Virus record (IMG/VR): IMGVR_UViG_3300030389_001758
Coordinates: 3,270-27,700 of that record
Origin: a virus
Direction: 5' to 3' (one strand)
Length of the DNA stretch: 24,431 nt
Shown here: positions 8,778 through 17,776 of the stretch, piece by piece
How positions within the stretch are numbered: the first letter of the stretch is position 1
Layout of the letters: the number at the start of each line of letters is the position of its first letter
Program-made: the position numbers and the translations under genes
The notes under the pieces: generated by a model
What the model was told of the DNA's origin: nothing
The model's input: the letters and a program-made list of their open reading frames with translations, nothing else
The model's database searches: none

Positions 8778-10298
8778 TCATGCAAAAATATCAAAATCAG
8801 ATTTAGCCACAATCGGCTGACTAAAAGTTCTTGTTCCTCTGGTCATACGTTTCATTTCACCCCCACCAAGAAGGCAGTAGCCTAGAGCATCACCAACGTG
8901 GGAATGTTCGTTTTTATTGGGTTTATCTCTAAATCTTTCCTGACCAGCTCCGATAGCCACCCTGGTAAAATGATAACCACCTGACAAAGACTTTCTCAGT
9001 CTCATACATTTTCTATTGACCAAGAACCCAGGCTTGCCCTGAATAAGTCTATTCATTGGCATAGCAACAGCTTCTCGTCTAACTTTAAAATCATTTGTTG
9101 CTGTTGGTCTTGCTTGGATGCCATGAGTTTTTAAGAAATCAAAAGACGTTGTCTCATAGATACCATCTCTTGAAGCTCCAGCTGGATCACCCCAAACCAT
9201 AAATTCATTCTTAGGAAAACGTACAGCCATTTCAGATTTTAAAATATTTGTAAATCGATCTAGACCCATATCATACGTTACAATCTCATGGAGAACGTGC
9301 CATGCTCCTGATGGCATACGTTGAGCAAAGACAGCTGAAGGAGTAAGTCCAAAGTCTAATCCAATTTGTACTGGCACATTTTCATCGACCATAAGATCAG
9401 CTGACATGGTTGAATCATCATATTCTGACCAAACTGGTCTTCCTTCCTGGACATAAGTATATTTACCTTCAGCATAACATCTGACCCAATCTAAATTTTT
9501 TCCACCCAATAACTGTTCATAATAACCATCAGGAAGGTTATGTAAGTTCTCAGCTTTAGGATTGGTTTTGAACCACTTACCACCAGCCGATATATAACCT
9601 TGAGCTTCAGGTATTTCTTTGGGAACATCTTTGAGTGACACTTCAAGAACACCACCTGGTTGACGATAAAAATGCCAGGCAAACTTACCTTTAGGTTTTT
9701 CTTTTTCTGCCATGTTGTACATCCAATGATCATCATCACAAGGATTGCTATCCATCCAAATACCTCTCCAGGTACAGCCACCATCAGCCTTAGAAGGATA
9801 CCTACCCACTCTATGAGACAACCCATCAATAACGGCTTTTGGAAGCTCCCTCGCTTCGTTTACGAATGCCCCAGTTAGTTCCATAGAAAGCAACTTCCTT
9901 TGGTCTTTGGGTTGATCTAATGCAAGAAAAATCACTTCACAATCAATGCCTGAAGCATCTCCACGAGCTGGTAATTTTAAATGATGTTTAATCGGTGGAG
10001 ACCAATGAAGGTTACCCCAAACATTTTCAGGGAATAATTCAAGCCACGTTTTTATCGTTGTTGTTTTGAGCATAGGGTAAGAGTTTCTCACCACAACAAA
10101 CCTGGAATATCTAATCCCATCTCTTGGGGATGGTTTTTGCTGGACAGCTCTTTTAAAAACTTCAGCACATGAAGCATAGGATTTACCTGATCCTACTGGA
10201 CCAATCAATCCTCTAACAAAACTATCATCTTTTAAAAACTTCCACACAGTAGGTGAGGTACTAAAATCTAAATTTAATTTATCAGGTTTTTCTGTCAT
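8778..10298 (-). CDS. Terminase large subunit
   Basis: I choose ATG 10298 (506 residues), because it overlaps the upstream TGA as ATGA with AGGAGA nearby; a TTG 30 nt further up is also open. The ATPase half has Walker A GPVGSGKS (33-40) and a Walker B-like LTGAFVNEA with Glu148. The nuclease half has acidic residues in IGLDFG (D315), WGDPAG (D371) and HVGDALGY (D470), as in RNase-H-like terminase nucleases. It powers DNA translocation through the portal and cuts concatemers. Family call certain; the cutting mode (cos, pac or direct repeats) is not shown by sequence. Confidence 0.95.
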   Translation of the reverse strand: MTEKPDKLNLDFSTSPTVWKFLKDDSFVRGLIGPVGSGKSYASCAEVFKRAVQQKPSPRDGIRYSRFVVVRNSYPMLKTTTIKTWLELFPENVWGNLHWSPPIKHHLKLPARGDASGIDCEVIFLALDQPKDQRKLLSMELTGAFVNEARELPKAVIDGLSHRVGRYPSKADGGCTWRGIWMDSNPCDDDHWMYNMAEKEKPKGKFAWHFYRQPGGVLEVSLKDVPKEIPEAQGYISAGGKWFKTNPKAENLHNLPDGYYEQLLGGKNLDWVRCYAEGKYTYVQEGRPVWSEYDDSTMSADLMVDENVPVQIGLDFGLTPSAVFAQRMPSGAWHVLHEIVTYDMGLDRFTNILKSEMAVRFPKNEFMVWGDPAGASRDGIYETTSFDFLKTHGIQARPTATNDFKVRREAVAMPMNRLIQGKPGFLVNRKCMRLRKSLSGGYHFTRVAIGAGQERFRDKPNKNEHSHVGDALGYCLLGGGEMKRMTRGTRTFSQPIVAKSDFDIFA

Positions 10299-11143
10299 CC
10301 AGTACATTCTCCTAAGTTTGCTTGGCAAAAATATCCTTGTTGATCAAACACCCAATCACTTTGTCTTTCAACATTATCTTTGAGTAAATGCATTTTTCTG
10401 TCATGATTAAAGAAGCCATAGTCACCACGATGTTTATGTTTGCTTTCTAAGTTTAGCCACCATTCAAACTTTTCAGGAAACTCTTTGCACAACATAGCTA
10501 ATTGATCTTCAGACTTTAAAAAACATCCATCACAATTTCCATACATCGTTTTGTTTCTAACTACTGGTAAATTTAATTTAAAATTTTTTTTTGCCCAAAA
10601 ATCATCAATCATTTGTGCAGTAACTTTGGTTTCACCAAGAGGAAACCACCTGGTAAATACATCTTTTTTTTGTTTTACATTTAATCTTTTTGGCTCATCG
10701 TATCTAATACCAACAGCATTGACCCAATTTCTCCAACCTAATTCAAGTGGGTTTCGTAAATATCTTTTTGCTGTTCTTATTTTTAATTCAATCGTACAAA
10801 ATCTCATCAAAACATTCGGTAAAACTTTTTTGTACTGTATTAGTTTTTCAAAAGGCTCACCATTACGACTAGCTGTTTCGTGATTAACTTCCTTGTAAGT
10901 AACTTTACCATTTACTAAATCATATTCTAACCAGATAATATCAACATTCCATTTATCAGAACATTCCTGAACAAAATCTAAAGTCTGCTCCATCTCTCTT
11001 CCAGTATTTGTAAATATAACTTTTGCTCGATCAGGCAGTCCATTGTTAGCTTCAAGTATCTTGTAAAGCATATAACCTGAAGTCCGACCACCACTAAAAC
11101 TGATCTGTACATTTCCTTCAGGTAAAAGATAATTACTTGTCAT
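10295..11143 (-). CDS. PP-loop ATP pyrophosphatase, PAPS-reductase/DndC-like
   Basis: A 282-residue protein of the adenine-nucleotide alpha-hydrolase superfamily. PP-loop SFSGGRTSGYM is at 15-25. An RFCTIELK motif (C116) and GIRYDEPKR (145-153) are typical of PAPS reductases and their phage relatives. The C-terminal part holds C204 and C207 (CDGC), C273 and C280, which could bind an Fe-S cluster or zinc. Such proteins use ATP to activate a substrate for sulfur transfer or reduction. The phage substrate is unknown; DNA or RNA thiolation, or sulfur metabolism, are options. It overlaps both terminase genes by a few bases. Confidence 0.8.
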   Translation of the reverse strand: MTSNYLLPEGNVQISFSGGRTSGYMLYKILEANNGLPDRAKVIFTNTGREMEQTLDFVQECSDKWNVDIIWLEYDLVNGKVTYKEVNHETASRNGEPFEKLIQYKKVLPNVLMRFCTIELKIRTAKRYLRNPLELGWRNWVNAVGIRYDEPKRLNVKQKKDVFTRWFPLGETKVTAQMIDDFWAKKNFKLNLPVVRNKTMYGNCDGCFLKSEDQLAMLCKEFPEKFEWWLNLESKHKHRGDYGFFNHDRKMHLLKDNVERQSDWVFDQQGYFCQANLGECTG

Positions 11144-11947: not shown

Positions 11948-12844
11948 CTAAGTTTTATACACATGAGTATATTTAGGTTTCATTTTTTTACCAAGCTCTT
12001 TTGTTATTCCTTCTGTTGTCTTAGGCTTTGGTTGCCAGTAAGCCTTGAAGTAAGCTATCGTATATGGTGGTCTTGAATATTCTTTTCTACATTGATGTAG
12101 TTTCTTTTGTACTGCTTTTCTAAATTCATGAACTGTTACTCCAAGATTAATTATCTCTTCAGCTATTCCTTCTTCTCTTTGATCCCACTTCCATTGACCT
12201 CGTGTCTGAGTGATGAGATCGAGTGCGTGTGAATACACATTTAAATATTCTTTTATTTTTTCCTTTATATAATTATTATTAGTTAAAGAAGAATAGTTCT
12301 GTACAACATCATCGTGTTGTGTCTCGGCACAACCTCTAGTGTTGTATAACTTCTTCTTATTCACAACATCAGGTTGTATCTTTTTAAGTGTTTCTTGAGC
12401 CTTTTTACTCTCGATGATGGGGTCATTTGTTTCTTTTATGAGCTGACTATCTGATATCTTTGGATCATAAATGAGACGATAAGTAGCCGTCTTTTTACCT
12501 TTTTGACGTAAGGCATTCTCGTTAATAATCTTCTTAATATAACCCCAATCAATCAGCTTAACGATCTGTCTTGAGATAGCTTGCTGGGTTCTATTTAATC
12601 TCTTTGCCAGGAGTATTTGAGATGGAAAAGCAATGCCACTTGTACCTTGAACATAGCTACACAGAACACATAAGACCTGGAGAGCTGAAGGATTATTGAG
12701 TAGTCTTTTATCATTCAAAGCTCGTGATGGTATCGCAATAAAAGCTGAAGGCGATTGTATGTCTGACACTCTATGCTTCTTTGGTGCAAGTGTAACTTCT
12801 TCTCTTGCCTTCTTTATCTGATCAACTTTATCTATCATGTTCAT
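11948..12844 (-). CDS. Winged-helix replication initiator (lambda O-like layout)
   Basis: A 298-residue protein. Residues 36-125 form a winged helix-turn-helix typical of phage/plasmid initiators: AFIAIPSRALND, ALQVLCVLCSYVQG, then PSQILLAKRLNRTQQAISRQI (74-94) and WGYIKK. A variable linker (about 130-192) is followed by a charged C-terminal domain with WKWDQREEGIAEEI. The linker DNA carries inverted repeats and an AT-rich tract, as lambda O carries ori. The likely role is to bind that origin and recruit host helicase. The start overlaps the previous stop (ATGA); ATG three codons in is an alternative. Confidence 0.75.
   Translation of the reverse strand: MNMIDKVDQIKKAREEVTLAPKKHRVSDIQSPSAFIAIPSRALNDKRLLNNPSALQVLCVLCSYVQGTSGIAFPSQILLAKRLNRTQQAISRQIVKLIDWGYIKKIINENALRQKGKKTATYRLIYDPKISDSQLIKETNDPIIESKKAQETLKKIQPDVVNKKKLYNTRGCAETQHDDVVQNYSSLTNNNYIKEKIKEYLNVYSHALDLITQTRGQWKWDQREEGIAEEIINLGVTVHEFRKAVQKKLHQCRKEYSRPPYTIAYFKAYWQPKPKTTEGITKELGKKMKPKYTHVYKT
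12243..12296. other. AT-rich unwinding tract next to the iterons
   Basis: In this 54-bp stretch I count 7 G or C bases, far fewer than in the surrounding gene. It lies on the downstream side of the iterons with respect to the initiator gene, the same side as the AT-rich part of lambda ori. It encodes Asn-, Lys-, Ile- and Tyr-rich sequence (residues about 184-201). It may be the duplex-unwinding element of a phage origin. Confidence 0.5.
12303..12377. repeat. Iteron-like inverted repeats in the initiator gene
   Basis: Three copies of ACAAC-N5-8-GTTGT lie in tandem: 12303-12320 (arms ACAACA/TGTTGT), 12329-12345 and 12363-12377. Their starts are 26 and 34 bp apart. They encode the linker of the initiator (about residues 157-182), where protein sequence is poorly constrained. 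Lambda ori has the same design, with inverted-repeat iterons in the middle of gene O. Binding by the gene's own product is inferred. Confidence 0.6.
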
Positions 12845-13491: not shown

Positions 13492-13725
13492 ATGAAGTTT
13501 AATATTGTTACAATCGATGAGAAAATAAATTTCGACAATGAAAAAGAGTTTGTTTCTTATTGTGAAAAGCAAGGTTTGAAAAAAACTGGAGTTCTTAAAT
13601 CAAATTTTTATGCAGAACAACTTATTAATAAACCTACATATTCTGAGTTATCAGGTCCAATGTACGATGGTGAAGATTCAGTTCGATACGAGACTTGGGA
13701 AGCTTATGAATTTTATTCAAGATAA
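13492..13725 (+). CDS. Small early protein, function unknown
   Basis: A 77-residue protein, the first of the rightward operon. It has a beta-like N-terminus (MKFNIVTIDEKINF), a short helix (EKEFVSYCEKQG) and an acidic, aromatic-rich C-terminus (YDGEDSVRYETWEAYEFYSR). ATG 13492 has a strong AGGGGG site 5 nt upstream. Leading early genes of phages often encode host-takeover proteins, but nothing in this sequence identifies a target. I do not recognise the family. Confidence 0.6.
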   Translation: MKFNIVTIDEKINFDNEKEFVSYCEKQGLKKTGVLKSNFYAEQLINKPTYSELSGPMYDGEDSVRYETWEAYEFYSR

Positions 13726-13738
13726 AGGGAGCAAGCTC

Positions 13739-14494
13739 ATGAGAGTAGTTAATACATCAGGACAAGAGCATAGTGGTATTTACTGTGCTTATGTTCGTGT
13801 CTCAACAGATGACCAGGATGTCGAAAGACAAAAACTAGAGATCAAAACCTGGCTCAATGGGGGTGATCATCAAGTCATTTGGTTTGAAGAAGAGGGTATC
13901 TCAGGCAAGATAGCACCTGAGAAAAGACCTAAACTGGCTGAGTGTATCAATACGGCTAAAGCTTCTAAAGGGTCTATCATTGTAGCTGACCTGGATCGTT
14001 TCTCCAGGACACAATGGCATACACTAAAATTCTTTGAAGAAGTCTTAGATAAAGGCAAGATCAAACTTATTGTGTGTAATGATCCTTCAATATCAGAAAG
14101 CTTTGAGCGTTTCTCCATGAAAGTTATGTTTGCAGAATTTGAAAGAAAGAAAATTTCTGAGAGAACTAAATCAGGATTAGCTCGTATTAAAAATGAGTTA
14201 AAAGAGAAGGGCATTTACAAGAGTAGGGAAGGTCGCAATGTCACCAAGCTGGGTATCCATGAGCATATGGATAAAGCAAGAGCAAGAGCTGGTGAGGTGG
14301 TCAAAGCTCAATCCGATGGATTTGCTCAGATCGTTGCACCTACTATACTTGCCTTACAAAAAAGTGGCATGAGCTATCGTGAGATTGCAACCAACCTTAA
14401 TCAAATCGGTACAACTACAGCAAGAGGTGGATCATGGTATGCTTCAACAGTTCGTAATGTTCTTAAAAGATTGGAGGGTTCAAATGAAAAATAA
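13739..14494 (+). CDS. Serine recombinase (resolvase/invertase family)
   Basis: I choose ATG 13739 (251 residues) because AGGGAG (13726-13731) lies 7 nt upstream and the catalytic domain begins right after it; the frame is open further upstream over the preceding gene, but that part does not look conserved. The nucleophile is Ser22 in YVRVST; Arg87 and Arg90 lie in DLDRFSR; EFERKKISERT is the usual long helix. The C-terminus (MSYREIATNLNQIG, GGSWYASTVRNVLKR) is a recombinase-type helix-turn-helix. It may integrate, resolve or invert DNA; no partner site was identified. Confidence 0.88.
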   Translation: MRVVNTSGQEHSGIYCAYVRVSTDDQDVERQKLEIKTWLNGGDHQVIWFEEEGISGKIAPEKRPKLAECINTAKASKGSIIVADLDRFSRTQWHTLKFFEEVLDKGKIKLIVCNDPSISESFERFSMKVMFAEFERKKISERTKSGLARIKNELKEKGIYKSREGRNVTKLGIHEHMDKARARAGEVVKAQSDGFAQIVAPTILALQKSGMSYREIATNLNQIGTTTARGGSWYASTVRNVLKRLEGSNEK

Positions 14495-16688: not shown

Positions 16689-17574
16689 TTTACCAACACT
16701 TAATCCAACGAATATGACAGAAGCTATGGAGTTCTCCAAGTTCCTATCAATATCAAGTAATATTCCTGATCAATTTAAAGGTAAACCAAATGATATCTTG
16801 GTAGCTATACAATGGGGATATGAGATTGGACTAGCTCCAATGCAATCCCTACAGAACATTGCAGTCATCAATGGCAGACCTTCTTTATGGGGTGATGCTA
16901 TGATTGCAGTATGTAAAGCTCATCCTGATTGGGGTGGAATGAAAGAAGAGTATATCGAGGAAGAAGCTAAAGCAGTATGCACAATCAAAAGAAAAATTAG
17001 AGGGGGTGAGATTGAAGAAACCACTTCGTCTTTTTCTTATGAGGATGCTAAACGAGCTGGTCTTACTTCCAAGAGAGGACCTTGGCAACAATATCCATCT
17101 AGGATGTTACAACTAAGGGCAAGAGGTTTCGCTCTCAGGGATGCATTTCCTGATGCGATCAAGGGATTAATCACAGTTGAAGAAGCACAAGATTATCCAA
17201 CTCAAAAACAAGGCGATATAAAGGTCGCACAGAGTCCAAAAGAGGTTAATGTGATAGATGACATCAAAAATAAAGTTAAGTCTATAGAGGACTCTGAAAA
17301 AGCCATTAAATACACTATGCATTTTATTGGCAAGAAAAGTCCTATCGTTTATGCCAATGCTAACGATTTCGTAACAAAATACATGGAAGTTGTAGCTGAG
17401 ATATACAATTCAGAATTTACTGATGAAAAAAAATCTCAGTTCATGGATGAGTTAAGAACAAAGAACATGGCAACAATAAGTAGTCTTAATGAAATACTTC
17501 AATCTGAAATGGAAATACAAATGGGAGAGTTCAATGTCTCAGGTAAAAATACCAATGACCAAAAAGCAGAATAG
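16681..17574 (+). CDS. RecT-type single-strand annealing protein
   Basis: I choose ATG 16681 (297 residues), after an AAAGGAAAG site; the frame is open upstream but overlaps the exonuclease. The N-terminal half fits RecT proteins very well: DILVAIQWGYEIGLAPMQSL (39-58), QNIAVINGRPSLWGDAMIAV (59-78), an AHPDW segment, TSKRGPWQQYPSRMLQLRAR (about 123-142) and GFALRDAFPDAIKG. The C-terminus is charged and variable. It coats and anneals single strands made by the exonuclease. No single-strand-binding protein gene was recognised nearby. Confidence 0.9.
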   Translation: MNSLPTLNPTNMTEAMEFSKFLSISSNIPDQFKGKPNDILVAIQWGYEIGLAPMQSLQNIAVINGRPSLWGDAMIAVCKAHPDWGGMKEEYIEEEAKAVCTIKRKIRGGEIEETTSSFSYEDAKRAGLTSKRGPWQQYPSRMLQLRARGFALRDAFPDAIKGLITVEEAQDYPTQKQGDIKVAQSPKEVNVIDDIKNKVKSIEDSEKAIKYTMHFIGKKSPIVYANANDFVTKYMEVVAEIYNSEFTDEKKSQFMDELRTKNMATISSLNEILQSEMEIQMGEFNVSGKNTNDQKAE

Positions 17575-17776
17575 TATTTATAACTTTATTAAGACATACA
17601 AAAACACTCATGATGTTTGTCCAACATACCAAGAGATTGCAGATCACTTTGGTCTTAAATCCAGGTCAACAATCCATAACCACATTCATAAGATTGAAAG
17701 AAGGGGATGGATCAAAAGAATACCTGGAGCAGAAAGAGCTATAGCTCTAAGTGATAGCTTGCATTCTTCTAACTAA
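17534..17776 (+). CDS. LexA-like DNA-binding domain protein without protease
   Basis: I choose ATG 17534 (80 residues) with GGGAGAG upstream; it lies within the annealase 3' end (41-nt overlap). It matches the N-terminal domain of LexA: MTKKQNSIYNFIKTYKNTH, then CPTYQEIADHFGLKSRSTIH (29-48), HIHKIERRGWIKR and PGAERAIAL. The C-terminal S24 self-cleaving domain is absent; only a 10-residue tail follows. It may bind host SOS boxes or phage sites without responding to RecA. It overlaps the opposing lysozyme gene by 30 nt. Confidence 0.8.
   Translation: MSQVKIPMTKKQNSIYNFIKTYKNTHDVCPTYQEIADHFGLKSRSTIHNHIHKIERRGWIKRIPGAERAIALSDSLHSSN
17735..17748. repeat. 14-bp perfect palindrome at convergent gene ends
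   Basis: AGAGCTATAGCTCT reads the same on both strands. It lies where the rightward and leftward operons meet, across the lysozyme stop codon and within the coding end of the LexA-like gene. It has no loop and no U-run, so it is a poor terminator. Confidence 0.5.

Follow-up and report, generated by a model that had tools for sequence, protein, structure and literature searches.

The stretch of DNA analysed here (the window, 24,431 nucleotides) comprises bases 3270-27700 of the virus record IMGVR_UViG_3300030389_001758, which totals 27,700 bp. Comparison of portal, terminase and tail genes places its phage near the marine podovirus MEP301, a Methylophilales phage whose hosts are OM43 methylotrophs (PMC8024684). 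MEP301 is the nearest cultured phage, at 58% for the portal and 67% for the terminase. Judging from the MEP301 gene order, the missing part of the record should hold structural genes.

The locus of interest is a gene on the minus strand (11948-12844) encoding a replication initiator of 298 amino acids, recognized by an HTH_36 match (E 9e-9) and by weak matches to PHROG families. It consists of a winged-helix domain (Pfam HTH_36, residues 51-103; 12536-12694, minus strand), a linker whose coding DNA contains the candidate origin, and a C-terminal domain (residues 191-287; 11984-12274, minus strand). The last of these, delimited by alignment, is conserved in all full-length members of the family and is helical in a low-confidence model. 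On one side, the initiator gene is flanked by a DUF1064 resolvase-like gene, and on the other by a small gene, unassigned or SSB-like, beyond which lies the small terminase gene, about 0.8 kb downstream of the repeats described below. In the records examined, the large terminase gene lies within about 3 kb of the initiator gene.

Other genes of the window include a phosphoadenosine phosphosulfate reductase-like gene (10295-11143, minus strand) between the small and large terminase genes; at least one of four relatives in an alignment has a gap in this stretch. A serine recombinase (13610-14494, plus strand), with a resolvase domain and part of a PF07508 recombinase domain, is possibly an integrase or invertase; MEP301 was reported to lack the second of these domains (PMC8024684). 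A 95-residue protein resembling the LexA DNA-binding domain (17489-17776, plus strand) is encoded after RecE/RecT-like genes.

A first-pass annotation, made from the sequence alone, had described three ACAAC/GTTGT inverted repeats in the linker-coding part of the initiator gene, and these are present, with spacers of 5, 7 and 8 nucleotides. In gene order, all on the minus strand, they are iteron 1 (12363-12377; ACAACCTGATGTTGT in the gene, ACAACATCAGGTTGT as window sequence; spacer N5), iteron 2 (12329-12345; ACAACACTAGAGGTTGT in the gene, ACAACCTCTAGTGTTGT as window sequence; spacer N7) and iteron 3 (12303-12320; ACAACACGATGATGTTGT in the gene, ACAACATCATCGTGTTGT as window sequence; spacer N8). 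As that annotation had predicted, the pattern ACAAC-N5-8-GTTGT clusters here only: the whole 27,700-bp record contains three copies, all at this site and none elsewhere, against a Markov expectation of 0.11 per genome of this size. None of 300 Markov-simulated genomes contained a cluster of three repeats within 80 bp.

Directly beside the iterons is an AT-rich tract (12243-12296), a probable DNA unwinding element, in which we counted seven G/C among 54 bp, the figure originally estimated. The minimum over the whole sequence is six G/C per 54 bp, reached by stretches that start at 12232-12242. Because the initiator gene is on the minus strand, the order in its 5'→3' direction is iterons and then AT-rich DNA, and the proposed match to the order in lambda ori therefore holds. 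When lambda gene O was passed through the same script, it returned the iterons and placed the lowest-GC 54 bp directly after iteron 4. The window phage and the lambda control agree in having an AT-rich tract that directly adjoins the repeats, and in the window's record several repeats of initiator-site type lie inside the initiator gene and nowhere else. GC skew tracked the direction of transcription and was uninformative on origin position.

Relatives of the protein with a repeat-free linker and an origin mapping elsewhere had been named as a result that would speak against an origin at this site. We found 17 related contigs, and among the clade-1 loci covering the spot, 15 of 15 keep the repeats at the same spacing (the contig of L010 ends after two of them), while more diverged relatives keep other repeats. 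In clade-1 codon alignments, synonymous difference was 0.5% in the iteron codons versus 24.5% in the rest of the gene, and none of 100,000 random draws gave a value as low. The interval with frozen synonymous sites (12269-12379; codons 155-191, counted from 0) covers the iterons and the start of the AT-rich tract. Two subgroups of clade 3 each showed the same effect (3-4% inside versus 27-32% outside), as did the group with ATAAC half-sites (0% inside versus 26% outside). A contiguous-block test was less extreme (block p 0.004-0.11), because the freeze extends beyond the iterons themselves. Judged by these comparisons, the iterons are under selection at the DNA level. Raw nucleotide identity along the replication region, also tried as a marker, did not single out the candidate origin, because the DNA of the large terminase gene is equally conserved; the synonymous-site test alone picked it out.

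The layout recurs in diverged relatives with different repeats. In all clade-1 relatives, the 60 bp after the last iteron contain 12-17% GC. In clade 2 (about 50% protein identity), the same linker contains three or four repeats, which differ from those of clade 1 in spacing and in linker amino acids and are followed by a tract with a minimum of 13-17% GC; in part of this clade, every repeat reads ATAAC-N7-GTTAT. Clade 3 (about 30% protein identity) carries ACAAG-N6-CTTGT two to four times, mostly three, and its AT-rich tract is milder (20-28% GC). A fourth clade has four or five copies of TGTWAC-N7-GTWACA and then a tract of 11% GC. Across the clades, linker amino acids, linker length and repeat number vary freely, and in all clades checked the most AT-rich DNA of the gene comes after the repeats.

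Some members depart from the common arrangement. The repeats of L113 (2551-2690) are mostly direct (GTAAC-N7-GTAAC), whereas those of its sister L114 are inverted (GTAAC-N7-GTTAC), the two differing in the middle base of a near-palindromic half-site. In L009-L019, and also in clade 2, an extra domain lies between the winged helix and the iterons, about 73 codons before iteron 1; it is missing from the window protein and from L004-L007. MEP301 gp55 (L022, 34057-34662, minus strand), annotated as hypothetical, is a distant winged-helix homologue of the initiator (E 3e-4 over 123 aa) that is shorter and lacks the C-terminal domain. No repeat cluster is visible near it, so that the in-gene layout is not universal in the group. 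A first scan of bacterial genomes returned no relative, and the single find of an alignment-based scan was a contig binned with Flavobacteriaceae (L080, CAKZOO010000071.1), which resembles phage DNA, encodes the initiator of this phage family and is probably phage DNA itself.

If the winged helix recognizes the iterons, the two should change together. Two natural recombinant pairs, L062/L063 and, on a different background, L067/L073, are 92-100% identical at the nucleotide level across the insert that separates winged helix and repeats and 90-100% across the C-terminal domain, whereas the winged helix and the repeats are mostly 58-85% identical. In L062/L063 the insert is 92-98% and the C-terminal domain 90-98% identical, and downstream, across the SSB-like gene, the small terminase gene and the early part of TerL, the DNA is 90-100% identical, while the winged helix is mostly 65-85% and the repeats are mostly 57-78% identical; the half-sites are ATAAC in one member and ACAAC in the other. 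Among nine members, distances between winged helices correlated with distances between repeats (r 0.58, p 0.002), more strongly than did those of the insert (r 0.28, p 0.08) or the C-terminal domain (r 0.33, p 0.05), and the partial correlation for the winged helix, given the other two, was 0.50. Although the comparison covers a small number of related sequences, and the same donors may have contributed to both swaps, this joint change is strong indirect evidence for cognate recognition, and we infer that the winged-helix domain binds the iterons.

The winged helix of L080 is a mosaic, with an ATAAC-type recognition helix and an ACAAC-type wing half, and its iterons are ACAAC. This points to the second half of the winged-helix region as the determinant of specificity, although, coming from a metagenome bin, it counts as one suggestive case. 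A rule that QP in the recognition helix denotes ATAAC iterons held for six loci and failed for L080. The Asp in the motif PLRDRG tracks ATAAC better than QP does, over few independent events.

Sites resembling DnaA boxes accompany the iterons. In the window, TTATTCACA (12357-12365, plus strand) overlaps iteron 1 and is conserved in clade 1; because TTATNCACA has two matches in the window versus 1.8 expected by chance, the site is suggestive only when taken alone. In six relatives, all copies of TTATNCACA in the record are inside the initiator gene. Upstream of the first iteron and close to it, many clade-3 members carry one or two perfect TTATCCACA boxes, and in four whole clade-3 records six perfect boxes lie at the candidate origin and two elsewhere. 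Since the loci behind the all-in-gene count (17 versus 0) are non-independent, and two perfect boxes lie elsewhere, we treat the boxes as support rather than proof; host DnaA is probably a helper in some relatives at least.

Several other explanations of the repeats were considered. They might merely reflect a conserved protein sequence of the linker, the amino acids of which are indeed conserved within clade 1. However, synonymous codons are frozen too, and across clades the linker varies freely in amino acids, length and number of repeats; the synonymous-site test refutes this explanation. Alternatively, the inverted repeats could form hairpins in the initiator mRNA that act in attenuation or translation control. 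In three clades they fold more stably than shuffled sequences (z-scores -3.9, -2.8 and -4.5), but any inverted repeat folds in this way. Moreover, all half-site copies change in concert, and jointly with the DNA-binding domain, the mostly direct repeats of L113 would give no proper hairpin, and the AT-rich tract and DnaA boxes would be left unexplained. We consider a function in RNA highly improbable.

About equally improbable is a pac or cos packaging site bound by the small terminase. Such sites often lie near terS, and here both terminase genes are close, the small one about 0.8 kb downstream and the large one within about 3 kb of the initiator in the records examined. Nevertheless, in L062/L063 the half-sites differ (ATAAC versus ACAAC) while downstream, up to and including the small terminase gene, the DNA is 90-100% identical; the winged helix, and not the terminase gene, changes with the repeats, which argues against packaging. 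A more serious alternative, although still an unlikely one, is that the repeats are operators, that the winged-helix protein regulates transcription only, and that the origin lies elsewhere. The winged-helix domain also resembles MarR-type regulators, and co-divergence shows recognition but not its purpose. However, the site is in the middle of the gene rather than at its start, the most AT-rich DNA of the gene follows it in all clades checked, and in clade 3 it has DnaA boxes beside it. Iterons often serve as both operator and origin, so that an operator role need not exclude an origin.

We also asked which replication enzymes the phage might supply. The first reading had seen no DNA polymerase gene, and this was borne out with wider scope: DNA_pol_A and DNA_pol_B were found neither in this record nor in MEP301 and 12 related IMG/VR records, although, as records may be incomplete, a polymerase gene could still be missing from them. 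The DnaB_C family and the DnaC-like IstB family were likewise absent from the 13 IMG/VR records and MEP301. The MEP301 paper reports no DNA polymerase (PMC8024684).

Our favored interpretation, to which we assign a probability of about 0.9, is that this phage uses the element as its replication origin and carries it within the gene that encodes its initiator. In the simplest case, a dimer of the winged-helix domain would bind the inverted half-sites of each of the three iterons, and the initiator-iteron complex would strain and open the adjoining AT-rich tract. The conserved C-terminal domain, proposed as the recruitment site, would then bring in the host helicase and the host replisome, since the phage has no recognizable polymerase, DnaB helicase or DnaC-type loader; host DnaA would assist, at least in some relatives. 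Binding, melting, helicase recruitment and use of DnaA are all steps that we infer from comparative evidence.

A more far-reaching proposal, which we offer tentatively and think rather less likely than its negation, is a compact one-protein start system. Its one initiator, which has no sequence relation to lambda O, would carry the iterons, the DnaA boxes and the unwinding tract within the linker and would recruit the host helicase alone. Recombination across a middle domain that is not itself exchanged would swap the DNA-binding domain together with the iterons, and new origin specificities could in this way arise quickly, perhaps under pressure from co-infecting relatives.

The kinship of the initiator was also addressed. 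It weakly matches the phage replication initiation families phrog_270 and phrog_12720, and its homologues match PHROGs for replication initiation and phrog_186 (DnaD-like helicase loader). Nine of 18 members gave a weak DnaD_N match (best 8e-4), and none in the initiator family matched the DnaD C-terminal domain. No match to Phage_rep_O (PF04492) was obtained up to E 10 in nine records, BLASTP against lambda O revealed no similarity (best E 0.45), NCBIfam had no family for the initiator, and a sequence search of solved structures gave chance-level matches only. Foldseek searches of the PDB with two AlphaFold models (pLDDT about 57) returned nothing with E ≤ 0.001, because the models were of low confidence. 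The winged helix belongs to the broad HTH_36 group and is weakly linked to DnaD and to other phage initiators. The original description of the origin as lambda-like is thus apt for its layout and its probable mechanism, but not for kinship.

These results provide a precise candidate origin for uncultured marine phages related to MEP301, for whose replication host dependence was all that had been described. The natural swaps amount to a ready-made specificity experiment, and a search that pairs frozen synonymous sites with co-divergence of the DNA-binding domain could reveal further in-gene origins among uncultured phages.

One of the closest known systems is lambda ori in gene O, where inverted-repeat iterons of about 18-19 bp lie mid-gene in the linker and are followed by AT-rich 3' DNA; the repeats here are roughly 15-18 bp. 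Iteron number also varies among lambda relatives, with four in lambda and six in Stx phages (PMC7466680). Unlike in lambda, the spacers vary within one origin (N5, N7, N8), the window iterons are further apart, the initiators have no detectable sequence relation, some relatives of the window phage have DnaA boxes next to the iterons, and no DnaC-type loader was found in a search for IstB/DnaC. SPP1 oriL in gene 38 similarly has repeats and an AT-rich unwinding element inside the initiator gene, and SPP1 DNA is synthesized by host polymerases (PMC6316719). However, SPP1 has direct repeats and a second origin, oriR, and encodes the helicase loader gp39 and the DnaB-type helicase gp40, neither type of which was found here. 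Iteron plasmids of the P1, RK2, R6K and pSC101 type share the iterons, AT-rich tract and adjoining DnaA boxes (PMC5043065), but the lambda O pattern, with dimers on inverted repeats, fits the window repeats better than the plasmid pattern of monomers on direct repeats (PMC5043065, PMC7466680). On these comparisons, the best reading is an in-gene iteron origin that would work like lambda ori, with an initiator that is no shown relative of lambda O.
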